DNA from: Devosia sp. Root413D1
Lineage (GTDB): Bacteria; Pseudomonadota; Alphaproteobacteria; Rhizobiales; Devosiaceae
Length of the DNA: 64,000 nt
Assembly (NCBI RefSeq): GCF_001425235.1
Contig: NZ_LMEA01000012.1
Coordinates: 499,818-563,817, forward strand
Direction of reading: 5' to 3'
Shown: piece by piece, positions 17,430 through 28,795 of the stretch
Layout of the letters: each line of letters begins with the position of its first letter
Position numbering within the stretch: the first letter of the stretch is position 1
Position numbers and translations under genes: made by a program
The notes under the pieces: model-generated
Database searches by the model: none
The model's input: only the letters and a program-made list of their open reading frames with translations
Told to the model about the DNA's origin: nothing

Positions 17430-18206
17430 TCAGAGCGCCAGGTACTCGCGCCGCAGCGCTTCGTCGGCGAGCACGTCCCGGGCGAGGCCGGTGAAAGCGA
17501 CTTCGCCGGTGTCGAGGATCACCGCGCGATCGGCGAGGCGGAGCGCGGCGACGGCGTTCTGCTCGACGATGATGGTGGTGATGCCGAGCGCCTTGATCTC
17601 GTTGAGGATGCGTTCGATTTCCTCGACGATGACCGGGGCGAGCCCCTCATAGGGCTCATCGAGCAGCAACAGCTTCAGGTTGCGGGCCAGTGCCCGGGCG
17701 ATGGCCAGCATCTGCTGTTCACCGCCCGACAGCGTCACGCCCTCCTGGCGGCGGCGTTCGGCGAGCCTGGGGAAATGCGAGTAGATCCGCTCGAGCTCCC
17801 AGCCGTGCCCGGGGGCGACCTGGGCGATGGTGAGATTTTCCTCGACCGTCAGACCCTGGATGATGCGGCGATCCTCCGGCACCAGCTGAATGCCGGCGCG
17901 CGCCGCTTCGAACGACTTCATTTTGTGGATCGGCTGGCCGTCGAGCCAGATCTCGCCCGCCTGCAGGGCCGGGTTGTCGACCCGAGCGATGGTGCGCAGC
18001 GTCGAGGTCTTGCCGGCGCCGTTGCGGCCCAGCAGCGCCAGGATTTCGCCGTGCCGGATATCGAAGCTGACGCCCTGCACGATGTAGCTCTCGCCGTAAT
18101 AGGCGTGAATATCCCTCGCGGCAAAGTACGGGCCGTCGTGCGGCACGACGCGTTCGGCGCTGCGGGCGGTGGTGCTGAGATCAGTGTCCATGGCGATCGC
18201 GCTCAT
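17430..18206 (-). CDS. livF: Branched-chain amino acid/amide-type ABC importer, ATPase LivF
   Basis: 258 residues. An N-terminal tail of about 25 residues precedes the ATPase core; Walker A GRNGAGKT at 60-67, signature LSGGEQQMLAIARA, Walker B LLLLDEPYEGLAP (the LivF-typical GLAP), H-loop IIIVEQN. The ATG is coupled to the LivG stop by TGATG. Together with LivG it energises the importer; substrates of this family include branched-chain amino acids, urea and short amides. Confidence 0.93.
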   Translation of the reverse strand: MSAIAMDTDLSTTARSAERVVPHDGPYFAARDIHAYYGESYIVQGVSFDIRHGEILALLGRNGAGKTSTLRTIARVDNPALQAGEIWLDGQPIHKMKSFEAARAGIQLVPEDRRIIQGLTVEENLTIAQVAPGHGWELERIYSHFPRLAERRRQEGVTLSGGEQQMLAIARALARNLKLLLLDEPYEGLAPVIVEEIERILNEIKALGITTIIVEQNAVAALRLADRAVILDTGEVAFTGLARDVLADEALRREYLAL

Positions 18207-18994
18207 CAGTGCACCGCCTCGAGCCGGTGGGCGCCGCCGAGATAGGCCTCCTGCACCTTGATATTGCCACGCACCTCATCGGGCAGCCCCTCGGCAATGA
18301 TCCTGCCGCCCGACAGGACGGAGATCTTGTCGGCCAAGGAGAACACGACATGCATGTCGTGTTCAATGATCACCTTGGTCATGCCGCGCGCCTTGATCTT
18401 CTGTAAGAGGTCGATGGTGGTGTTGGTGTCGTGCCGCGACATGCCGGCGGTCGGCTCGTCGAGCAGCAGCAGGCGCGGATGCTGGATCAGGCACATGGCC
18501 AGCTCCATGCGCCGCTTGTCGCCGCGGCTCAGGGCGCCGGCATGGGACAGCCGGCGATCGGCGAGGCCGACATCCTCGAGGATCGCCTCGGCTTCGTCGC
18601 GCAGCGCCGCTTCGCGCTCGACGCTGCGCAGCACATTGACGCGGAAGGCGCCATCGCGCCTGGCGAAGGCCGGCACCATGACGTTCTGCAACACCGTCAG
18701 ATCGGGGAAAATCTCGGGGGTCTGGAACACCCGGGCGACGCCGAGCTGGTTGATCTGGTGCGGCTTCTTGCCGGTCAGCACCTGGCCATCGAACACCACG
18801 GCGCCGCTGGTCGGCGCCAGCCGACCGATGATCACGTTGAGCAGCGTGGATTTGCCGGCGCCGTTCGGCCCGATAATGGCGTGAGTCTGGCCCTCTTCGA
18901 CTTCGAGGTCGATGTCGGACAAAGCGTGCAGCCCGCCGAAATTCTTGCTGACGTCATCGACATGCAGGACGACATTGCGTTCTGTGGTTGTCAT
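18206..18994 (-). CDS. livG: Branched-chain amino acid/amide-type ABC importer, ATPase LivG
   Basis: 262 residues. Walker A IGPNGAGKST at 41-50, the LivG-typical GVARVFQTPEIFPDLTVLQN, signature SRGDKRRMELAM (a variant of LSGG, seen in urea/amide-type LivG-like proteins), Walker B LLLLDEPTAGM, H-loop VIIEHDM. The start lies 7 bp after the LivM stop. Confidence 0.92.
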   Translation of the reverse strand: MTTTERNVVLHVDDVSKNFGGLHALSDIDLEVEEGQTHAIIGPNGAGKSTLLNVIIGRLAPTSGAVVFDGQVLTGKKPHQINQLGVARVFQTPEIFPDLTVLQNVMVPAFARRDGAFRVNVLRSVEREAALRDEAEAILEDVGLADRRLSHAGALSRGDKRRMELAMCLIQHPRLLLLDEPTAGMSRHDTNTTIDLLQKIKARGMTKVIIEHDMHVVFSLADKISVLSGGRIIAEGLPDEVRGNIKVQEAYLGGAHRLEAVH

Positions 18995-19001
18995 CTTGGC
19001 G

Positions 19002-20144
19002 CTACTCCGCCGGCTGGACGCGCATGGCGCCGGCTTTGGGTGGGTTGCCCCGGCGGAACAGCGCGCCGATACGGCGCACGCCCTCCATGATGCCGCCGGG
19101 CAGGAACACCACGACCAGGACGAACAGCAGCCCCAGCGTCAGCTGCCAGCCTTCGCCGACGAACTTGCTGGCGATGGCGACGACGGTGTCGTGCAGCGGG
19201 GCGGGAATGAAGTCGAAGAAGCGGCTCAAGATGCCCTCGTTGAAGGACGAGAAGATGTTCTCGAAATACTTGATCAGCCAGGCACCCATCACCGGCCCGA
19301 TCAGCGTGCCGACGCCGCCGAGGATGGTCATCAGCACCACCTCGCCGGAGGCCGTCCACTGCATGCGTTCGGCGCCCGCCAAAGGATCGGTGACTGCCAG
19401 CAGCGCCCCGGCGAGCCCGGCATACATGCCCGAGATGACGAAGGCGGTGAGCGCATAGGGGCGGGTGTTGAAGCCGGTATAGCTCATCCGCATCTGGTTG
19501 GATTTGATGCCCCGCAGCATCATGCCGAAGGGCGAGGCGAAGACCTTCTGGGCAAAGAAGAAGGCGATGAGCAGCACCACGGCGCAGAAATAGAAGCCGC
19601 TGAGCCCGCTTAAAGTCACGCCGAACAGGCTCGCCGTCGGCAGGCCGGCACCGCGGGTGGTGAAGGCGAGGTCGATGAGGCGCGGATCCTGCAGCGTCAA
19701 TTGCAGCGAGGTCTCGCCATTGGTGATCGGGGTCAGCACCGAGTAAGCGAGGTTGTAGCTCATCTGGGCGAAGGCCAGGGTCAGGATGGAGAAGTAGATC
19801 CCCGATCGCCGGAGGCTCAGGAAACCGATGACCAGCGCGAACAGCCCGGAAATCACCACCGCGAGGAGCAGCGCCGGCAGCGCGTCCATGGTCAGGAGCT
19901 TGAACGACCACACGGCGGTATAGGAGCCGACCCCGAGGAAGGCGGCATGGCCGAAGCTCAGGTAACCGGTGAGCCCGAACAGGATGTTGAAGCCGATGGC
20001 GAAGATCGCGTAGATCGCGAATTTCTGCATCAGGCCCGGATAGTTGGCGCCGAACGGCGCCGTCCATACCGGCATGGTGACGACCACCAAGGCGAAGAGC
20101 GCGAGGATCAGCGCGTCGCGGCGGGAGAGCTGGAACAGCGCCAT
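19002..20144 (-). CDS. livM: Branched-chain amino acid/amide-type ABC importer, permease LivM
   Basis: 380 residues from the ATG at 20144, which has GGAGA 7 nt upstream; an earlier TTG overlapping the LivH stop is less likely. LivM hallmarks: [25 protein letters not shown], the EAA-like [23 protein letters not shown] and [16 protein letters not shown]. About ten helices. The long C-terminal loop [20 protein letters not shown] is larger than in E. coli LivM and recalls the urea/amide branch. Confidence 0.92.
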
Positions 20145-20146
20145 GG

Positions 20147-21175
20147 TCAATTCTCCATCATGCCGCGGCGGCCGAACAGCCCGCGCGGCCGGACGAGGAG
20201 GATCACCACTGCCGTCAGGTAGATGATGATCTGATCGATGCCGGGCAGGATCGACTTGATCTGGTTCATCGAGGCAAAACTCTGCAGGATCCCGAGCAGG
20301 AACCCGGCGGCCACGGCGCCCGGCAGCGAGCCCATGCCGCCCACCACCACGACGACGAAGCTCAGCACCAGGAAATCCATGCCCTGGTGATAGTTGGGCG
20401 GCAGCAGCGGGGTGTACATCACGCCGGCGAGGCCGGCGACCACCGCGGCAAGACCGAACATGATGGTGAAGCGGCGGTCGATATTGATGCCGAGCAGCCC
20501 CACCGTCTCACGATCGGCCATGCCGGCCCGCACCACCATGCCGAAGGTGGTGAAGCGCAGGAAGCCGAACACCGCGGCGATGACGCCGGCCGAGAACAGG
20601 AAATACACCAGCCGCCACAGCGGATAGGTCAGCGCCCCCGGTGCAAGGCCGATCAGCGCCCCGACATCGGCGGCGCCGCGCAGCGCGGTGGGCATGGCCT
20701 GGCTGATCGGGTTGGGCCCGAAGATCGCCTTGACGATCTCCTGCAACACGATGGCGAGGCCGAAGGTGACGAGAATCTGCTCGGCGTGCGGACGCTTGTA
20801 GAAATGCTTGATCAGCCCGCGTTCCATGACGATGCCGATGACCAGCATCACCGGGATGGCGAGGAGGATTGAGAGCGGCACCGACCAGTCGATCAGCACC
20901 GCCCCCCAATCGCCGAACCAGGTCTGGGCGAGCGGCGTGCGCACTTCGAGCGCGGTGCCCCAGGCGGTGGTCTGGGTGGGGTCGACGGTGACGGTTTCGA
21001 GGGTGATCAGGTAGCGGAAGGTGACGGCACAGAAGGCGCCGAGCATGAACAGCGCGCCATGCGCGAAGTTGACGACGCCGAGGGTGCCGAACACCAGGGT
21101 CAGCCCGAGCGCGATCAGCGCGTAGGCGCCGCCCTTGTCGAGGCCGTTGAGAAGTTGCGCGAGTATGGCGTCCAT
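20147..21175 (-). CDS. livH: Branched-chain amino acid/amide-type ABC importer, permease LivH
   Basis: 342 residues. LivH hallmarks: [40 protein letters not shown], the EAA loop [22 protein letters not shown] and [20 protein letters not shown] hydrophilic insert near residues 60-85 ([16 protein letters not shown]) enlarges an early loop. The ATG lies 72 bp after the binding-protein stop and heads the membrane/ATPase half of the operon. Confidence 0.92.
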
Positions 21176-21247
21176 GGTCCGCTGCCCTGTTGGTGCCAGA
21201 GTAGCCGCTCCGGCTGGATCGCAGCCGGAGCGGGCCTCAGGTGTCGA

Positions 21248-22597
21248 TCAGCAGGCGACCGCGGTGTCGGGACCGAGCTCGCCGCCGAAGATCGCCGGAT
21301 CGTAGGTGACGCTTTCCTTGGAGGCGGTGGCGACCACTTCGAGCAGGTCGAACGGGTTGGCCGGCGCTTCCTTGCCCTTCACCACATAGACTTCCTTGAA
21401 GCACTGGTGGTCTGTGGCGCGGTAGCTGGTCGGACCGTTCCCCATGCCGTCGAACTCGAAGCCCTCGAGGGACTTGATGACCTCTGGCGGATAGAAGGTG
21501 CCGGCGCGTTCGCAGGCATCGGCATAGAGCAGTGCCTGGACGTAGGAGGTGTGGGCGGCCTGGCTCGGCGGCTGGCCGAACTTGGCGCCGAACGACTTGG
21601 TAAAGGCCTTGCTGGCGTCGTCGGGCAGCTGCCAATCCCAGTTCGAGGTGCCGTAAATGCCCTTCATGGCATCGCCGGCGCCCTTGGCCATCAGGTCGGA
21701 GACCAGCGGCACGACGATCTCGAACTGCTTGCCGTTGGCCTGCTTGTCCTTCATGCCGAACTGCACCGCCTGGGTGAGCGAGTTCACCATGTCGAAGCCG
21801 TAATGGTTGAGGATCAGCACGTCGGCGCCGGAGTTGAGCACCGGTGTCAGATACTGGCTGAAATCGCCGGCGCCCACCGGGGTGCGGACCGGCGCCAGGG
21901 TCTTCCAGCCGAGCGCCTCGGTGGCGTTCTTCATCGACTCTTCCTGGGTCCAGCCCCAGGTGTAGTCGGCGGTCAGGTGGTAGGCGACGCGATCCTTGCC
22001 ATAAGCATCGCCGAGCACTGGCCCCAGCGCGATGCCCGACTGATAGGCGTTGAAGAAGTGGCGGAAGCCGTAGCGCTTCTTGTCCTTGCCGGTGGTGTCG
22101 TTGGAGTGGGTGAGCGCCGCCATGAAGATGACGCCCTTTTCCTGGCAGAGCCCCTGCACGGCGATCGCCACTGCCGAGGAGGAACCGCCGGTGATCATCA
22201 CCGCGCCATCGCGCTCGATCATGCGGCGCGCCGAGTCGCGGGCGGCATCGGCCTTGGTCTGGTCGTCGCCGGTGACGCCCACCACCTTCTTGCCGAGGAT
22301 ACCGTTGCCCTTCAAAGTCTTCGACGAGAAGAACGGGATCAGGCCGCCATCGCCGCCGCCATTGAGGTGCTCGACGGCGAGCTCGTAAGCGCGCTGCTCG
22401 TCGGCGCCCTCATCGGCATAGGCGCCGGTCAGCGGCATGTTGAAGCCGATGGTGACGGTGTCACCGGTCGGTGCGTTGCAGAATTCCTGGGCATAGGCGC
22501 CCCGGGTGAAAATCAGCGGCGAAACGCCGGTCGCCAGAATGCCGGCAAGGCCGCCCTTCAGCACGCCGCGGCGGCTGAAGTTCCCAGAATTGGTCAT
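21248..22597 (-). CDS. LivK-like ABC importer substrate-binding protein with Tat signal
   Basis: 449 residues from the ATG at 22597, behind GAGGAGG. The N-terminus FSRRGVLKGGLAG is a twin-arginine signal with predicted cleavage after AYA near residue 36. The mature chain has the periplasmic-binding type 1 fold: VTIGFNMPLTGAYADEG, AVMITGGSSSAVAIAV, GVIFMAALTHSNDTTG. Members of this Peripla_BP_6 group bind amino acids, urea or amides. Tat export suggests folding before export. It is the first gene of the Liv-type operon and divergent from the ScfR-like gene (180-bp gap). Confidence 0.9.
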   Translation of the reverse strand: MTNSGNFSRRGVLKGGLAGILATGVSPLIFTRGAYAQEFCNAPTGDTVTIGFNMPLTGAYADEGADEQRAYELAVEHLNGGGDGGLIPFFSSKTLKGNGILGKKVVGVTGDDQTKADAARDSARRMIERDGAVMITGGSSSAVAIAVQGLCQEKGVIFMAALTHSNDTTGKDKKRYGFRHFFNAYQSGIALGPVLGDAYGKDRVAYHLTADYTWGWTQEESMKNATEALGWKTLAPVRTPVGAGDFSQYLTPVLNSGADVLILNHYGFDMVNSLTQAVQFGMKDKQANGKQFEIVVPLVSDLMAKGAGDAMKGIYGTSNWDWQLPDDASKAFTKSFGAKFGQPPSQAAHTSYVQALLYADACERAGTFYPPEVIKSLEGFEFDGMGNGPTSYRATDHQCFKEVYVVKGKEAPANPFDLLEVVATASKESVTYDPAIFGGELGPDTAVAC

Positions 22598-22746
22598 TAG
22601 CTCCTCCTCATGCGCGGCGGGGCACGGTGCATTGCCATGCGCCTCACAGCGATGCGCCACTATCCGGCGGTCTGCAAAGCTGCGCAACAGGTGACTGATA
22701 TTGCTCAGCATTTCTGTAAATCATTGGCCTTGCTCGGCTGCCGATG

Positions 22747-22762
22747 TGTCAATAGATTGACA
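22747..22762. promoter_or_regulatory. Perfect palindrome upstream of the ScfR-like regulator, probable autoregulatory operator
   Basis: TGTCAAT (22747-22753) and ATTGACA (22756-22762) are exact inverted 7-bp arms around AG, ending 15 bp before the regulator ATG and overlapping the zone of its ribosome-binding site. A 16-bp palindrome of this kind fits a dimeric XRE-type regulator binding its own leader; the assignment is inferred. Confidence 0.5.
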
Positions 22763-22777
22763 ATCCAGGGGAGATAC

Positions 22778-24400
22778 ATGCGCGCGCCGATCGGGCTCAA
22801 GATCAGTTCACGTCGCCGGGCATTGGGGGTGTCGCAGGCCGCGCTCGCGCGCCGCGCCGGAATTTCCGCGAGCTATCTCAACCTGATCGAGCGCAACAAG
22901 CGCCATGTCGGCGGCTCGCTGCTGATCCGCCTCGCCGAAGAGCTCGGGGTGGAACTCAGCGAACTCAGCGGCGATGCCGAGCACCGGCTGATCGCCGAAC
23001 TCGACGAAGCCTTCGCCGATCCGGTGCTCGAGGGCATCGACATGCCGGCGTCGCGCGATCTGGTGGCGCAGCAGCCGGCCGCTGCGCGCGCTATCGCCCG
23101 CCTCCGCCGCGCCTATCTCGGCGCCACCGCCAATGCCGACAGCTATGCCGACCGGCTGCGGACCGATCCGCTGCTGGCGCAATTGCTGCACCGCATCCTC
23201 TCCGGCATCACCGCCGTCCGCTCCACCGCCGAAATTCTCGAGGATGTCACCGATCTCGAGGAAGGCGAGCGCGAGCGGTTCGTCGAAACGATCACGCGCG
23301 AGACGCGCGGGCTCACCGATGTGGCGCGCAGCCTGATCGGCCAGTTCGAGGTCGATGCCCGGGGCCGGCGCACGCTGTCGCCGATCCGCGAACTCGACGA
23401 CCTGATCTTCGAGCGTGACAATTACTTCCCGGGGCTCGAGGCCGTCGCCGCCGAGTTGCGGGCCGAGATCGAAGCCAGCGGCCCGTTCGGCGAAGCTGCA
23501 CTTGCCGCCTGCCTTGCAGCCAAGTTCGGGGTCAGCGTCTCCCGCAGCGCCGATCGCGAGGTGGATGCTGCCGGTTTCCCCGGCCAGTATCACTTCAACT
23601 CCAATACCCGCACCATGTGGTTCCAGGCGAGCGCCGGCGCCGCCACCCGGCAGTTCCAGCTCACGCGGCTTTACGCCGAACTCAGCGCCGCCGACGCCAT
23701 CGAGCGTGAAGTCGACACCCCGCAACTGTCGACTGGCACGGCGCGGCGGCTTGGCTATCGGGCGCTCAGCTCCTACCTCGCCGGCGCCATGGTGTTTCCC
23801 TATGCGCAGTTTCTCGCCGATGCCGAAGCGCAGCGCTATGACATCGAGACGCTGCGCCAGCTCTACACTGCGAGCTTCGAGCAGGTGGCGCATCGCCTGG
23901 TTTCGTTGCGCAAACCGGGCGAGCCCGGACTGCCGTTCGGGTTCCTGCGCTCCGATGCGGCGGGGCGATTGACCAAGCATTTCCCCCTGCCCGGCCTGCC
24001 GCTGCCAAGTGCCGGGCACGCCTGCCCGCGCTGGGTGATCTATGGCGCGTTCCGCACGCCGCGGACGCTGGCCCGGCAGATCGCGCAGTTCGCCGACGGC
24101 TCGCGCTACCTGTTCATTGCCAGCGCGCAACCGCGACAGGGCGCCGGCTATGCCGACCACGCCATTCCGACCTCGGTGATGCTCGCCTGCGATGTGCTGC
24201 ATGCCGATCGCACGGTTTACGGCGCCGGCCTCGATCTCGGCGACAGCAGCGCCGACGTACCGGTCGGGCCGAGCTGCCGCCTCTGCCCGCGGCGCGATTG
24301 CGCCGACCGGCAGGAAGAAGCCTTCACCACGGCGGGCGAGCCTGCCGCCATCCGGGCGCCGCTGGTGCCCCGGCGTTTCGACATTGGCGAGCCGGACTAG
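22778..24400 (+). CDS. ScfR/RamB-like XRE regulator with degenerate IrrE-type and DUF2083 regions and a HisKA-like segment
   Basis: 540 residues; the ATG follows AGGGGAG. Residues 5-62 are an XRE helix-turn-helix (ALGVSQAALARRAGISASYLNLIERNKR). The middle holds an IrrE/DUF955-like region whose HExxH is lost (FQLTRLYAELS instead), and the C-terminus is the DUF2083 region ending with a Cys cluster, CRLCPRRDC. ScfR/RamB proteins of about 470 residues control short-chain acyl-CoA or acetate metabolism. Here residues 130-190 form an extra helical pair that aligns with a histidine-kinase dimerisation domain: HRILSGITAVRSTAEIL matches the H-box, with His138 at the phospho-acceptor place, and ERERFVETITRETRGLT matches the second helix of the neighbouring kinase. 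No ATP-binding domain follows. The next genes encode that kinase and a receiver protein. Confidence 0.88.
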   Translation: MRAPIGLKISSRRRALGVSQAALARRAGISASYLNLIERNKRHVGGSLLIRLAEELGVELSELSGDAEHRLIAELDEAFADPVLEGIDMPASRDLVAQQPAAARAIARLRRAYLGATANADSYADRLRTDPLLAQLLHRILSGITAVRSTAEILEDVTDLEEGERERFVETITRETRGLTDVARSLIGQFEVDARGRRTLSPIRELDDLIFERDNYFPGLEAVAAELRAEIEASGPFGEAALAACLAAKFGVSVSRSADREVDAAGFPGQYHFNSNTRTMWFQASAGAATRQFQLTRLYAELSAADAIEREVDTPQLSTGTARRLGYRALSSYLAGAMVFPYAQFLADAEAQRYDIETLRQLYTASFEQVAHRLVSLRKPGEPGLPFGFLRSDAAGRLTKHFPLPGLPLPSAGHACPRWVIYGAFRTPRTLARQIAQFADGSRYLFIASAQPRQGAGYADHAIPTSVMLACDVLHADRTVYGAGLDLGDSSADVPVGPSCRLCPRRDCADRQEEAFTTAGEPAAIRAPLVPRRFDIGEPD

Positions 24401-24452
24401 TTATGCCTAAGTAGGCCAAGCCTGATTGGGAGGTCGGGCAGGAGGGGGAGAT

Positions 24453-24836
24453 TTGGCTGTCGATGTTCTCATCGCCGAGGATGAGCCGAGCATTCTAAGA
24501 TCGCTCGACTTTATCCTCCGCCGCGCCGGCTGGTCGATCGAAGCGGTCACCGACGGCGACGCCGCGCTCAGCGCGGTGCGCCGCAGCATGCCCAAAGTGC
24601 TGGTCCTCGACGTGATGCTACCCAAGCGCTCGGGCTTCGATGTACTGAAGCAGATCCGCGCCGATGACGCCTTGCGGCAGTTACCGGTGCTGATCCTCAC
24701 CGCCAAGGGGCAGGCACAGGATCGCCGCACCGCCGAGGAGCTCGGCGCCGACCGGTTCGTCACCAAGCCCTATGCCAATGCCGAGGTGGTCGGGGCGGTG
24801 CGCGAACTGATGGGCCTCGCTCCGGCGGTGGAATAG
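24453..24836 (+). CDS. Receiver-only response regulator
   Basis: 127 residues from a TTG behind GGAGGGGGAG; no in-frame ATG is available. The whole protein is a CheY-like receiver: VLIAEDEPSI acidic pocket, phospho-acceptor Asp in VLVLDVMLPKRSG, conserved Thr in LILTAK and Lys in FVTKPYAN. There is no output domain, so it must act by protein contact, for example as a phosphate shuttle or by binding the HisKA-like part of the upstream regulator. It lies 52 bp after the ScfR-like gene and 4 bp before the next one. Confidence 0.92.
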   Translation: MAVDVLIAEDEPSILRSLDFILRRAGWSIEAVTDGDAALSAVRRSMPKVLVLDVMLPKRSGFDVLKQIRADDALRQLPVLILTAKGQAQDRRTAEELGADRFVTKPYANAEVVGAVRELMGLAPAVE

Positions 24837-24840
24837 ACCG

Positions 24841-25074
24841 ATGGAGCGCCGGAAGCTCGAAAGCGCGGCGCTGTTCCTCAGCCTCCTGGGTGTTTTGCTG
24901 ATCCTGCCGCCACTCGCCGTGGTGTTCCAGCTCGAGCGGCGCCTGTTCGGCGTGCCGTTCGAGGTGATCTACCTGTTCGTTTGCTGGCTGGGGCTGATCG
25001 CCGCTGCCTTCTGGCTCGGCCGCCGCCTGCCGCGCGAAACCGAGGCCGAACCGCCAACCGAGGGCGAGGACTGA
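24841..25074 (+). CDS. Small two-helix membrane protein preceding a symporter-kinase
   Basis: 77 residues with two hydrophobic helices (about residues 9-29 and 40-60), then an acidic tail rich in Glu and Pro. It begins 4 bp after the receiver stop and its TGA overlaps the start of the symporter-kinase gene (TGATG). Size, topology and position are those of small proteins commonly encoded beside solute:sodium symporters of the SSS family (DUF485/DUF4212-like), but I cannot assign the family firmly. A partner or stability role for the symporter part is inferred. Confidence 0.78.
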   Translation: MERRKLESAALFLSLLGVLLILPPLAVVFQLERRLFGVPFEVIYLFVCWLGLIAAAFWLGRRLPRETEAEPPTEGED

Positions 25075-27749
25075 TGCTGACGCCGGACGTGGTCATCGCC
25101 GTCGCCATCGGTTACGTCGGCCTCCTCTTCCTCATCGCCTATGTCAGCGACCGCCAGGCGCGTAACCACAAGGCGGCGTTCCTCCGCTCGCCCTTCATCT
25201 ACACGCTCGCCATCTCGGTCTATTGCACCAGCTGGACGTTCTACGGCGCCGTCGGTTCGGCGGCGCGCAACGGGCTCGAATATCTCGCCATCTATCTCGG
25301 GCCGACGCTGGTGTTCATCGGCTGGTGGTTCGTACTGCGCCGGCTGGTGCGGATCAGCCACAAGCAGCGCATCACCTCTATCGCTGACCTGCTATCGGCG
25401 CGGTTCGGTAAATCGAGCCGCCTCGCTGTGCTGATCACCGTCATCGCGGTGATCGGCATCGCGCCCTATATCGCGCTGCAACTCAAGGCCGTCACCTCGT
25501 CGCTGCAGGCCATTGCCGGGGTCGGCGAGTTTCCCGGCCGGACGCTGCGCGGCATCGACGAGGTCGGGCTGGCGCTGGCGGTTGCGGCGGGGATGGCGCT
25601 GTTCACTATCTTGTTCGGCACACGCAATGTCGATGCCAAGGAGCAGCATCACGGCGTCGTCGCCGCCATCGCCTTCGAAGCCATCGTCAAACTCGCGGCG
25701 CTGCTGGCGATCGGCATCTTCGTCATCTATGCGGGTGGCGGGCTCGAAGCGATCTTCTCGCGCGCCGAAGCGGCCGGGATCGACATCTACTCGACCGGCA
25801 ATTTCGACGACCGCTGGGTGGCAATGAACGTGCTTTCGGCGGCAGCCATCCTCTGCCTGCCGCGGCAGTTCCAGATCACCGTGGTCGAGAACTCCAACGA
25901 AAATCACCTGCGCACTGCCGGCTGGGCCTTTCCGGCCTACCTGCTGCTGATGAGCCTGTTCACCCTGCCGATCGCGCTGTTCGGGCTGACCTCGATGCCC
26001 GCGGGCGCCAACCCGGACATGTTCGTTCTCACCCTGCCGCTCTCGGCCGGACAGGAGGGCCTCGCGCTGTTCAGCTTTATCGGCGGCTTCTCGTCGGCCA
26101 CCTCGATGATCATCGTCGAGTCGATTGCGCTCTCCATCATGGTCTCCAACCATATCGTCATGCCGATCGTGCTGCGGGTCACCCAAGGGCACGGCGTTGC
26201 CAGTGCCCGTGGCGTCAGCCGCCTGCTGCTCAACTCGCGCCGCTTCTCGATCGCGCTGATCCTCTTACTGGGGTTTTTGTATTTCTACCTGACGCGCGAT
26301 TCCGACGCGCTGGCGCCGATCGGGCTGATCTCGTTCTGCGGCGTGGCGCAGTTCCTCCCCGCCATCATCGCGGCCCTGTTCTGGCGCGAGGCCTCGCTCA
26401 AGGCCGCGACATCAGCGGTTGCCGTCGGTTTCGTGGTCTGGGCCTGGTCGAGCTTCATGCCGTCGTTCCAGAGTTCGTCGCCGCTGGTGGCTCAGATCAT
26501 GGCCGAAGGGCCGTGGGGGTTCACCTGGCTGCGGCCCGAGGCGCTGTTCGGCGTCGAGGATATCGACCCGCTGGTCAACGTGGTGTTCTGGAGCCTCTTG
26601 CTCAACACCGCGACGCTGGTGGTCGTTTCGCTCTTCACCTCGCAATCGGCGCTGGAACGGGTGCAGGCGGCGCTGTTTGCCGATCTGTTCCGCCGCCCCG
26701 GCACCGGCGCGCCGGCAGTGATCCGCGGCTCGGCGACGGTCGAGGATCTCTATTTCGTCGCCGAGCGGGTGCTGGGTTCGCCGCGCGCCAAGGCGCTGTT
26801 CGAGGGGGTGGCTGGCGCGCCGCCACCGCAGTTCATCGATCGGCTGGAGCGCGAGCTCGCCGGCTCGATCGGCGCCGCTTCGGCGCATGTGATGCTCAGC
26901 AAGGTGGTGTCGGGCGACGCGGTATCGCTCGAGGAAGTCTTCGAGATGGCCGGCGAGACCCGGCAGGTGATCGAATATTCGCAGGAGCTGGAGCGCACCT
27001 CGGCCGAGCTCCGCTCGACGGCGCAGAAACTGGAGGAAGCCAACACGCAGTTGCGCGCCATCGACACCGAGAAGGACGAGTTCCTGAGCCAGGTCAGCCA
27101 CGAAGTGCGCACCCCGATGACCTCGATCCGCTCGTTCTCGGAGATCCTGCTCGAGGAGCAGAGGCTGACCGCCGACGAGCGGCAACGCTTCGTCAAGACC
27201 ATCCATCAGGAGAGTCTCAGGCTCACCAAGCTGCTCGACGACATCCTGGGGATGAGCGCGCTCGATCACGGCGAGCATGGCTGGGACAACACGCCGATCG
27301 AGGCCGAGCGCTCGATCGATCGCGCCATTGAAGTCTGCTCGGCGCTGGCGCGGCAGCGCCGCATGCAGCTGACCGTCGGCAGCCGCGCGCCGAGCGCGGT
27401 GATCTCGGGCGAACCCGACCGGCTCTGCCAGGTGCTGATCAACCTCGTCTCCAACGCCATCAAATACAATGATGCGGCCGAGCCGATGGTCGAAGTCCGC
27501 TCCCGCACCGGGCGCGGGCGCTACCTGATCGAAGTCGCCGATAACGGCCCCGGCATCCCCAAAGCCGAGCGTAAACTGATCTTCGAAAAGTTCGCGCGTG
27601 GGCAATCGGGCGGCGTCACCGCGCCCGCCGGGGCCGGCCTCGGCCTCGCCATTTCGCGCCAGCTGATCGAGCGGATGAACGGCAAGCTGGAACTGCTGCC
27701 GGCCACCGGCCAGGGCGCCTGCTTCCGCATCACCCTACCCCTGCTGTAG
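25074..27749 (+). CDS. Hybrid solute:sodium symporter-sensor histidine kinase (CbrA-like)
   Basis: 891 residues. The N-terminal half (about 1-500) is an SSS-family symporter with a dozen or more helices (VSVYCTSWTFYGAVGSAARNG-like opening, VVENSNENHLRTAGWAFPAYLLLM, IGGFSSATSMIIVESIALSIM). After a linker, a HisKA domain has the H-box SHEVRTPMTSI with His676, followed by HATPase motifs NLVSNAIKYND (N-box), DNGPGIP (G1) and GAGLGLAI (G2). The whole set is intact. It probably senses an organic acid or other solute through the transporter part and phosphorylates the receiver at 24453-24836. CbrA and related proteins control carbon source use; acetate or another short-chain acid is suggested by the ScfR-like neighbour, but not proven. 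Confidence 0.93.
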   Translation: MLTPDVVIAVAIGYVGLLFLIAYVSDRQARNHKAAFLRSPFIYTLAISVYCTSWTFYGAVGSAARNGLEYLAIYLGPTLVFIGWWFVLRRLVRISHKQRITSIADLLSARFGKSSRLAVLITVIAVIGIAPYIALQLKAVTSSLQAIAGVGEFPGRTLRGIDEVGLALAVAAGMALFTILFGTRNVDAKEQHHGVVAAIAFEAIVKLAALLAIGIFVIYAGGGLEAIFSRAEAAGIDIYSTGNFDDRWVAMNVLSAAAILCLPRQFQITVVENSNENHLRTAGWAFPAYLLLMSLFTLPIALFGLTSMPAGANPDMFVLTLPLSAGQEGLALFSFIGGFSSATSMIIVESIALSIMVSNHIVMPIVLRVTQGHGVASARGVSRLLLNSRRFSIALILLLGFLYFYLTRDSDALAPIGLISFCGVAQFLPAIIAALFWREASLKAATSAVAVGFVVWAWSSFMPSFQSSSPLVAQIMAEGPWGFTWLRPEALFGVEDIDPLVNVVFWSLLLNTATLVVVSLFTSQSALERVQAALFADLFRRPGTGAPAVIRGSATVEDLYFVAERVLGSPRAKALFEGVAGAPPPQFIDRLERELAGSIGAASAHVMLSKVVSGDAVSLEEVFEMAGETRQVIEYSQELERTSAELRSTAQKLEEANTQLRAIDTEKDEFLSQVSHEVRTPMTSIRSFSEILLEEQRLTADERQRFVKTIHQESLRLTKLLDDILGMSALDHGEHGWDNTPIEAERSIDRAIEVCSALARQRRMQLTVGSRAPSAVISGEPDRLCQVLINLVSNAIKYNDAAEPMVEVRSRTGRGRYLIEVADNGPGIPKAERKLIFEKFARGQSGGVTAPAGAGLGLAISRQLIERMNGKLELLPATGQGACFRITLPLL

Positions 27750-27838: not shown

Positions 27839-28795
27839 ATGGCTCGTCAAGACACAGCTGTCACGCGTCTCGACGATGCGGCCAGGGCGGGGTGGCTCTA
27901 CTACGTCGCCGGCAACAATCAGGAGCAGATCGCCAAAAAGCTCGGCGTGTCGCGCCAGACGGCGCAGCGGCTGGTGTCGCTGTCGGTGAGCGAGGGGCTG
28001 GTGCGGGTGCGGCTGGACCATCCGATCGGGCGCTGCATGGAACTGGCCGAGCAGCTGCAGAAGCGCTACGCGCTCGATTTCGCCGAGGTGGTGCCGACCG
28101 ATCCCGAGGCGCCCGGGGCGATCCATGGCGTGGCGATCGCCGCCGCGGCCCAGATCGAGCGCTGGCTCAGGAGCGACACGCCGACGGTGATGGCGATCGG
28201 CACGGGGCGAACGCTGAAAGCGGCGATTGAGCAGCTGACGCCGATGGAGGCGCCGCAGCACAAGATCGTGTCGCTGACCGGCTCGATCGCCCCCGACGGC
28301 TCGGCTGCCTTTTACAACGTGATCTTCAACATCGCCGAGACGGTGAAGGCGCGCAGTTTCCCTATGCCGCTGCCGGTCATCGCCTCGTCGGCGGCCGAGC
28401 GCGACATGCTGCTGAGCCAGCCGATGATCCGCGAAACCCATACCCTGGCGCAGCAGGCCAATGTCACCTTCGTCGGCATCGGCGACCTCGGTCCCGAGGC
28501 GCCGCTGGTGGTGGATGGCTTCATTTCGCCGGCCGAACTGAAGCTCCTGCAGAAGGCCGGGGCGGTCGGTGAGATCGTCGGCTGGGCGTTCGATGCGCAG
28601 GGCAAATTCATCAGCGGGCTGACCAATGACCGCGTCGCCTCAGCGCCATTGCCGTCGCGGGAGAGCTCGACGGTGGTGGCAACGGCGGTCGGCGAGCGCA
28701 AGGTGCCCGGCATCCGGGCCGCGCTGACCCGCCGGCTGGTCAATGGCCTGATCACCGACGAGCAGACCGCCGAGGCGATTCTCGCGGCTGATTAG
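27839..28795 (+). CDS. SorC-family transcriptional regulator of the polyol operon
   Basis: 318 residues; the ATG follows CGGAGGG. The N-terminus has a helix-turn-helix (QEQIAKKLGVSRQTAQRLVSLSVSEGL), the rest is the sugar-binding SorC domain: MAIGTGRTLKAAIEQL, VSLTGSIAPDGSAAFYNV, VTFVGIGDL and GEIVGWAFDAQGKFI. SorC regulators sense phosphorylated or free sugars and polyols. The gene lies just upstream of, and in the same direction as, the polyol importer operon, separated by a promoter region with an inverted repeat. Confidence 0.9.
   Translation: MARQDTAVTRLDDAARAGWLYYVAGNNQEQIAKKLGVSRQTAQRLVSLSVSEGLVRVRLDHPIGRCMELAEQLQKRYALDFAEVVPTDPEAPGAIHGVAIAAAAQIERWLRSDTPTVMAIGTGRTLKAAIEQLTPMEAPQHKIVSLTGSIAPDGSAAFYNVIFNIAETVKARSFPMPLPVIASSAAERDMLLSQPMIRETHTLAQQANVTFVGIGDLGPEAPLVVDGFISPAELKLLQKAGAVGEIVGWAFDAQGKFISGLTNDRVASAPLPSRESSTVVATAVGERKVPGIRAALTRRLVNGLITDEQTAEAILAAD

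Follow-up and report, generated by a model that had tools for sequence, protein, structure and literature searches.

A kinase-type DHp hairpin inserted in ScfR-type regulators encoded with a probable SLC5-type histidine kinase and an output-less receiver in Devosia and other Alphaproteobacteria

Spo0B and ChpT carry dimerization and histidine-phosphotransfer (DHp) type domains that exchange phosphate with receivers and are not kinases; they may resemble in this the hairpin described here and differ from it in having a degenerate CA-like domain and no DNA-binding domain. To our knowledge, many single-domain receivers are without a known output. Here we report on a 64,000-nucleotide stretch of Devosia sp. 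Root413D1 (contig NZ_LMEA01000012.1, positions 499,818 to 563,817; hereafter the window), in which a long-form ScfR-type transcription factor of 540 amino acids (22778 to 24400, plus strand) contains a HisKA/DHp-like helical hairpin without an ATP-binding domain and is encoded beside a receiver with no output domain and a probable SLC5-type sensor histidine kinase.

By analogy, the nearest known mechanism appears to be that of DivL of Caulobacter, whose pseudo-kinase region senses phosphorylated DivK (PMC4211667; statements cited by PMC number rest on the accessible parts of those papers). There, as is proposed here, the phosphorylation of a single-domain receiver is read out by a kinase-like region without kinase action. 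DivL, however, has the build of a PAS-kinase, CA domain included, and acts on CtrA activation by way of other kinases (PMC4211667), whereas in the window a DHp stands alone inside a DNA-binding regulator and its histidine is mostly kept. The ScfR regulators PrpR/MccR, PccR and RamB share XRE helix-turn-helix (HTH), IrrE-like and ScfRs domains with the window protein (PMC10370305), which differs in its inserted DHp of about 70 residues and in the placement of its gene in a two-component module. Pden_1785, an ScfR-network protein of Paracoccus denitrificans, adjoins a two-component system, and the accessible part of that paper makes no mention of a DHp with it (PMC10370305). The SLC5-type kinases CrbS, CbrA and RpuS combine a symporter-like membrane part with a histidine kinase core, as that of the window probably does; RpuS/R uses a LuxR-type response regulator (PMC9100948), whereas here the receiver is output-less and the output is found on a separate DHp protein. 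In the literature searched, which was partial and had most subscription journals outside it, no transcription factor with a DHp/HisKA and without an ATP domain was found.

We propose, at a probability of roughly 0.55, that the detached DHp of the ScfR regulator is a receiver-reading input domain that controls boxes beside an importer operon. The SLC5-type kinase would sense a solute and phosphorylate the free-standing receiver, which would in turn dock on the DHp hairpin of the regulator, probably with a preference for the phosphorylated form, the hairpin imitating the receiver-binding face of the kinase itself. Docking would alter the regulator dimer and, through this, how the regulator binds two boxes that lie between the operon it belongs to and a divergent ABC importer operon, such that control would run from kinase through receiver to regulator. 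The receiver has no output domain, and so is proposed to act by this docking; the layout would be reversed compared to the usual receiver joined to a DNA-binding domain. The sequence-only reading of this DNA had suggested that the regulator might dock the receiver, or dimerize with or accept phosphate through it. Of these suggestions docking has become the best supported, as the module is kept across Alphaproteobacteria, the receiver-facing half of the hairpin is kept and the autokinase motif is lost. If the proposal is correct, DHp-bearing proteins without an ATP domain would be a concrete and searchable class of targets for single-domain receivers, and a single switch would link a membrane solute sensor with a transcription factor of the acyl-CoA-sensing kind. 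The system, which is present in many alphaproteobacterial families, would then be an unusual route for passing a signal to genes.

By its sequence, the segment of residues 130 to 190 of the regulator (bases 23165 to 23347, plus strand) is a HisKA/DHp hairpin. Its first helix, HRILSGITAVRS, contains His138 (codon 23189 to 23191), and its second, ERERFVETITRET, aligns to ERQRFVKTIHQES of the kinase at 25074 to 27749, as had been read from the letters alone. The Pfam HisKA profile remained below its curated cut-off of 26.9 bits for the window protein by itself, both with the 76-residue segment (E = 7e-4, about 20.0 to 20.2 bits) and with the whole regulator (0.018, 15.5 bits), and was decisive once relatives were added: HisKA was matched by 23 of 27 regulator members at E ≤ 0.1, and PF00512 by 36 of 57 regulator segments at E ≤ 0.01, the best at 4e-11. 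When the DHps of 57 regulators were compared to those of 40 module kinases by hhalign, the probability was 99.6 over 60 columns (E = 4e-24, for a single comparison). A search of the Devosia genome with the regulator profile returned the regulator itself at 105 bits and the adjoining kinase at 64.2 bits (E = 5.8e-17), with other frames at 25.1 bits or less; the kinase DHp (27072 to 27272) is thus the closest kinase match in the genome. These two comparisons and the HisKA matches among relatives rule out a chance likeness. No HATPase_c domain was found in the regulator by Pfam, in keeping with the earlier statement that no ATP-binding domain follows the hairpin. AlphaFold2 modeling of residues 84 to 206 as a monomer (74 alignment rows) predicted a two-helix hairpin with helices at 131 to 156 and 162 to 198 and block predicted local distance difference test (pLDDT) values of 80 to 96 over 124 to 193; in a full-chain model from 28 rows the hairpin was poor (block pLDDT 42 to 72 over residues 121 to 200). 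A PDB sequence search with a 71-residue profile placed protein A repeat constructs above HK853 (E 3.9e-5), and no stretch was significant alone. The close likeness to the kinase over both helices would also fit a regulator that is kept at the membrane because its DHp and that of the kinase form a mixed four-helix bundle. We give this a very slim chance: it leaves the nearly always present receiver without a role, and the analysis produced no evidence of a mixed bundle.

Judged from alignment, the DHp of about 70 residues is an insertion between the HTH-linker and the IrrE-like domain of an otherwise ordinary ScfR protein. The 31 long forms aligned have these residues and the seven short forms all lack them (7/7, including L001, the second ScfR of the Devosia genome itself, an open frame of 481 amino acids), which agrees with the length difference first noted. 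An ScfR tree built without the insert columns (41 long and 17 short forms) separated the two forms by one change, with a Shimodaira-Hasegawa-like approximate likelihood ratio test (SH-aLRT) value of 88; the tree is unrooted, so gain and loss of the insert are not told apart.

We then compared the residues of the regulator and kinase DHps, counting from the histidine (H) in 75 regulators and 52 kinases, with H, H+1 and H+4 recounted in 92 regulators. The kinases had E at H+1, R at H+3 and P at H+5 without exception (52/52), whereas the regulators most often had Q (30 of 75) or R (24) at H+1 and L at H+3 (60), and none had proline at H+5. The autokinase motif HExRTP is missing from the regulators, and an acid is found at H+1 in 16 of 92. 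By contrast, the two sets share the latter half of helix 1 and a good part of helix 2: T at H+7 (56 regulators and 47 kinases), R at H+10 (66 and 52), S at H+11 (70 and 47), I at H+15 (74 and 44), F at H+30 (71 and 44) and L at H+41 (72 and 52). If the histidine of HK853 is His260, as we presume, its residues 268, 271, 275, 294 and 297 correspond to H+8, H+11, H+15, H+34 and H+37. According to the title of PDB entry 4jau, the kinase-receiver interface was rewired by changes at these residues (A268, A271, T275, V294 and D297); between regulators and kinases the agreement is close at H+11 and H+15, and looser in helix 2 and at H+8. Among HisKA proteins that have been tested, only kinase activity depended on the acid at H+1 and only phosphatase activity on T/N at H+4 (PMC3510030). 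The loss of most H+1 acids together with the retention of second-half residues argues that autokinase chemistry is gone and that much of the receiver-facing part is retained. From what is described of HisKA proteins, the receiver may dock on this retained face.

The receiver itself (24453 to 24836, plus strand; 127 amino acids from a TTG taken as start, a position that is approximate) matched PF00072 at 91.4 bits over residues 5 to 116 and has no output domain. Among module receivers D10, D53 and K105 were found in 51 of 51 and T83 in 50; with its catalytic residues intact, the receiver should be phosphorylated. The kinase (25074 to 27749, plus strand; 891 amino acids) has HisKA (61.2 bits) and HATPase_c (93.6 bits) domains. 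It gave no Pfam SSF match in a test for SLC5/STAC parts, has many hydrophobic segments, and is about 40% identical over residues ~6 to 645 to frames of about 1180 amino acids found in many genomes of the order. These frames we take to be CrbS-like, and the SLC5 label of the kinase follows from this likeness and from the hydrophobic segments. Regulator, receiver and kinase lie in one gene string on the plus strand (22778 to 27749), as first reported, and the DHp regulator is the DNA-binding partner that this conserved module offers.

Linkage was examined at 63 long-form loci with wide flanks (L003-L006, L038-L053 and L084-L126, near-duplicates included) and at 17 short-form loci picked from the listing of the order-level search. 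An SLC5 kinase was detected within the stretch at 57 of 63 long-form loci compared to none of 17 short-form loci; in six of the 57 (L043, L050, L120, L122, L123 and L126) the first part of the kinase is seen, the stretch or contig ending there. The kinase was mostly the direct neighbor of the regulator and lay about 4 to 9 kb off in L043, L101, L120, L122, L123 and L126. A P0002-like receiver was present at 58 of 63 long-form loci and one of 17 short-form loci, the latter (L138) having the receiver in a 240-aa frame about 1 kb off together with part of another kinase. A divergent ABC importer (binding protein, permeases and ATPases) was found beside 59 of 63 long forms (absent beside L109, L115, L116 and L117; the stretches of L048 and L098 hold only part of the binding protein) and none of 17 short forms, of which L139 had one weak LivG-like match 8 kb away. 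At six long-form loci no kinase was in the stretch (L084, L097, L105, L108, L112 and L124), and all six genomes carry it elsewhere (E < 1e-220). A kinase on another contig still matched the regulator profile at E ≤ 1e-12 in five of these six genomes (G628, G505, G297, G516 and G660; not G412), which indicates that nearness on the DNA does not alone create the likeness. Local gene conversion between neighbors is for the same reason an unlikely source of it.

Co-occurrence extended beyond these loci. A relative of the kinase at E ≤ 1e-150 was held by 46 of 297 genomes of the order, the next matches (5e-146 and weaker) being mostly frames of about 1180 amino acids aligned over residues ~6 to 645 only. 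The DHp regulator was found in 44 of the 46 kinase-bearing genomes (27 by a first search and 17 by a search of all candidates); the two exceptions were G194, which has a variant described below, and G128, which is 88% complete in 370 contigs. The regulator profile was also run on seven genomes that lacked a kinase match: three returned no match, and in the other four the matches were weak (3e-9 to 1e-6) and fell in frames scoring 41 to 67 bits with the kinase-DHp profile. The search of 385 genomes of the class added 43 regulators, and all 43 were accompanied by the kinase (37 in the stretch and six elsewhere in the genome); this count leaves out a fragment of 69 residues from G360, a genome that is 68% complete and gave no match to the kinase. 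In 398 genomes of the phylum, with about 11 candidates scored per genome, regulator-length matches were all within the same class. The candidates scored per genome numbered four (order, regulator), three (order, kinase) and about 10 to 11 (class and phylum), and absences are weaker there; they are firmer in the follow-up search of the order for the regulator, which scored every candidate.

Outside the class, 23 genomes matched the regulator profile, and the matched frame (903 to 981 amino acids) was the SLC5 kinase. Eight stretches (L189-L196) that contain this kind of kinase but lack a DHp regulator were examined. In L192, L193, L195 and, inside the class, L196 (from G194), the kinase was accompanied by a receiver gene and by a protein of 689 to 756 amino acids (L192:2494-4611, L193:9306-11372, L195:3965-6232 and L196:9497-11653) with PAS-like matches that are weak and fall below the cut-offs, an RNase_T exonuclease domain that clears its cut-off by a wide margin and, between these parts, a DHp-like segment. 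Pfam HisKA matched this segment weakly in L192 (E 0.006) and L196 (0.14) and gave no match in the exonuclease proteins of L193 or L195; by profile comparison the segment aligned with a probability of 98.5 to the kinase DHp and 98.1 to the regulator DHp. The protein was nearly full length in 22 of the 23 outside-class genomes (not G743) and in G194; of these 23 exonuclease proteins, 17 share a contig with the kinase and are encoded no more than about 5 kb from it, and six are on another contig. Aligned on a shared R-x-P, none of the 23 has histidine at the His position (E 17, T 2, P 2, A 1 and M 1), and H+4 is most often Gly (11 of 23). A His-less DHp with the same kinase and receiver favors docking over phosphotransfer as the common principle. 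The CrbS literature searched contained, in its accessible parts, no mention of an exonuclease or DnaQ. Tentatively, and with somewhat less than even odds, we suggest that detached DHps are a separate receiver-reader device that has been fixed to different outputs (ScfR in Alphaproteobacteria, a PAS/DnaQ-type exonuclease in other Pseudomonadota) of one SLC5-kinase/receiver module, the receiver reporting by docking on a kinase look-alike and the usual receiver-plus-output layout being reversed.

The suggestion that phosphate passes through His138 fared less evenly. In a phosphorelay of the Spo0F to Spo0B style the receiver would hand its phosphate to His138, and the phosphorylated regulator would change its DNA binding. 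An acceptor DHp is taken to need no ATP domain, and 83 of 92 regulators have the histidine, as do 56 of the 64 that are left by filtering at 80%. Yet the other nine regulators have F (4), Q (3), Y (1) or L (1) at this position, the 23 exonuclease proteins have no histidine there and little survives in the regulators of the context around it (E at H+1, R at H+3, P at H+5), so that we consider a relay unlikely. A phosphatase role, in which the DHp would be a phosphate sink and the regulator would reset the receiver, has a slim chance. It agrees with S, T or N at H+4 in 90 of 92 regulators, T/N being needed there for phosphatase activity (PMC3510030), but the commonest residue is Ser (42 of 92) rather than the tested T/N, the exonuclease proteins mostly have Gly, and the place of the domain on a transcription factor is left unexplained.

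Several results weigh against docking of the receiver on the regulator DHp. Docking by itself would not call for so strong a retention of the histidine (83 of 92 regulators), and the regulators are less like the kinase in helix 2 and at H+8, one of the rewiring positions. When the structure of the hairpin was compared, HK853 ranked first (4jav, Z 9.6, root-mean-square deviation (rmsd) 3.4, 85 aligned residues) and unrelated hairpins reached 9.3, so this comparison does not tell a DHp from other hairpins. The stretches fetched for L097, L108, L112 and L124 contain no kinase and no receiver, and in L099 (6007 to 10415) regulator, small membrane gene and kinase are contiguous with no receiver found. 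Three of these regulators, L108 and L112 (one family) and L124, also lack the histidine, a combination of no His and no nearby kinase that speaks against the earlier interpretation; the genomes of all three carry the SLC5 kinase elsewhere. By partial Mantel analysis of 44 loci (filtered from 51), the DHp-receiver correlation was low (partial r 0.11, p 0.02) compared to 0.34 for the C-terminal part of the regulator and the receiver (with slightly different control sets), and that of the DHp with the kinase DHp (0.14) was no more than for the HTH or C-terminal parts. Every regulator part correlated with every kinase and receiver part. Co-evolution of DHp and receiver was therefore dropped as support, there being no signal beyond co-inheritance of the whole module; with the module inherited together, linkage alone is no proof of contact. 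This, and the fact that DHp domains dimerize, would suit a hairpin borrowed as a dimerization or spacer element only, with no signaling role. To this we assign a small chance, given that T145 (71 of 92), R148 (83), S149 (86) and E152 (79), which are taken as exposed from helix geometry, are nearly as conserved as I153 (91), F168 (88) and L179 (89), that the domain was seen alongside this kinase and was absent from the short forms examined, and that kinases encoded elsewhere also matched.

If the docked regulator acts on DNA as proposed, its sites may lie directly upstream of its own gene, where a candidate two-box operator-like site, recognized by its box pattern, is found at 22712 to 22753 (TTCTGTAAATC and TGTGTCAAT, 32 bp apart). 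The box TTTACA(A/G)A or its reverse was present in 44 of 57 long-form upstream regions (75 loci minus 18 near-copies) compared to 17 of 1140 random 300-bp stretches from the same loci, and a second box 32 bp on was the commonest spacing (nine cases). Among the short forms, 9 of 17 had a box within a region of 350 bp spanning the frame start, and the box thus belongs to the ScfR family more widely. The relaxed pattern TGTAAATN{19,27}TGTMAAT occurred once in the 5.85-Mb genome, at the window pair 22712 to 22753, with none in a backward control. Judged from these sites, the likely targets of the regulator are its own operon and the importer. A dyad, TGTCAAT-AG-ATTGACA, at 22747 to 22762 overlaps the second box, and similar dyads are found in L003 and L004.

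The importer is a five-gene, branched-chain-type operon on the minus strand (17430 to 22711), divergent from the regulator. It consists of a substrate-binding protein (21248 to 22597, probable start 22597, open frame to 22711) and of permeases and ATPases of LivH, LivM, LivG and LivF type, assigned by order and size (17430 to 21175). PDB relatives of the binding protein were of several kinds or had unnamed ligands, and no substrate was found among them. A D-lactate importer reportedly described from Phaeobacter was not found in the literature searched.

Apart from its insert (residues 130 to 190), the regulator has an XRE HTH (residues 11 to 63; HTH_3 46.9 bits), an IrrE-like M78 domain (250 to 374; 35.0 bits) and an ScfRs domain (377 to 517; PF09856, 137.5 bits), all over their own cut-offs; against the RamB equivalog NF038139 it scored 292.9 bits, below the curated cut-off of 700. 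From residue 200 onward the model of the regulator matches Mycobacterium tuberculosis PrpR (6cyj; Z 36.7, rmsd 2.3, 316 residues), and the 50 matches listed in the whole-protein structure comparison were HTH and C-terminal matches. Four cysteines of a presumed iron-sulfur site (C416, C500, C503 and C508) are kept in 74 of 75 long-form regulators and may bind a cluster, by analogy to PrpR/RamB (PMC10370305). In one family (L118, L119, L121 and L125) the regulators are 434 to 483 amino acids long, with the IrrE-like region cut to about 100 residues and the HTH, DHp and cysteine-bearing C-terminus still present.

Between receiver and kinase, a small protein of 77 amino acids, probably membrane-bound, is encoded at 24841 to 25074 (plus strand) and is kept in most modules; it matched no Pfam family over cut-off and no NCBIfam model. 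Directly 3' of the kinase lies a gene for an LsrR/DeoR-type regulator (27839 to 28795). A relative of it was found at this place only in the close Devosia loci L003 and L004, and the gene is thus probably outside the module.

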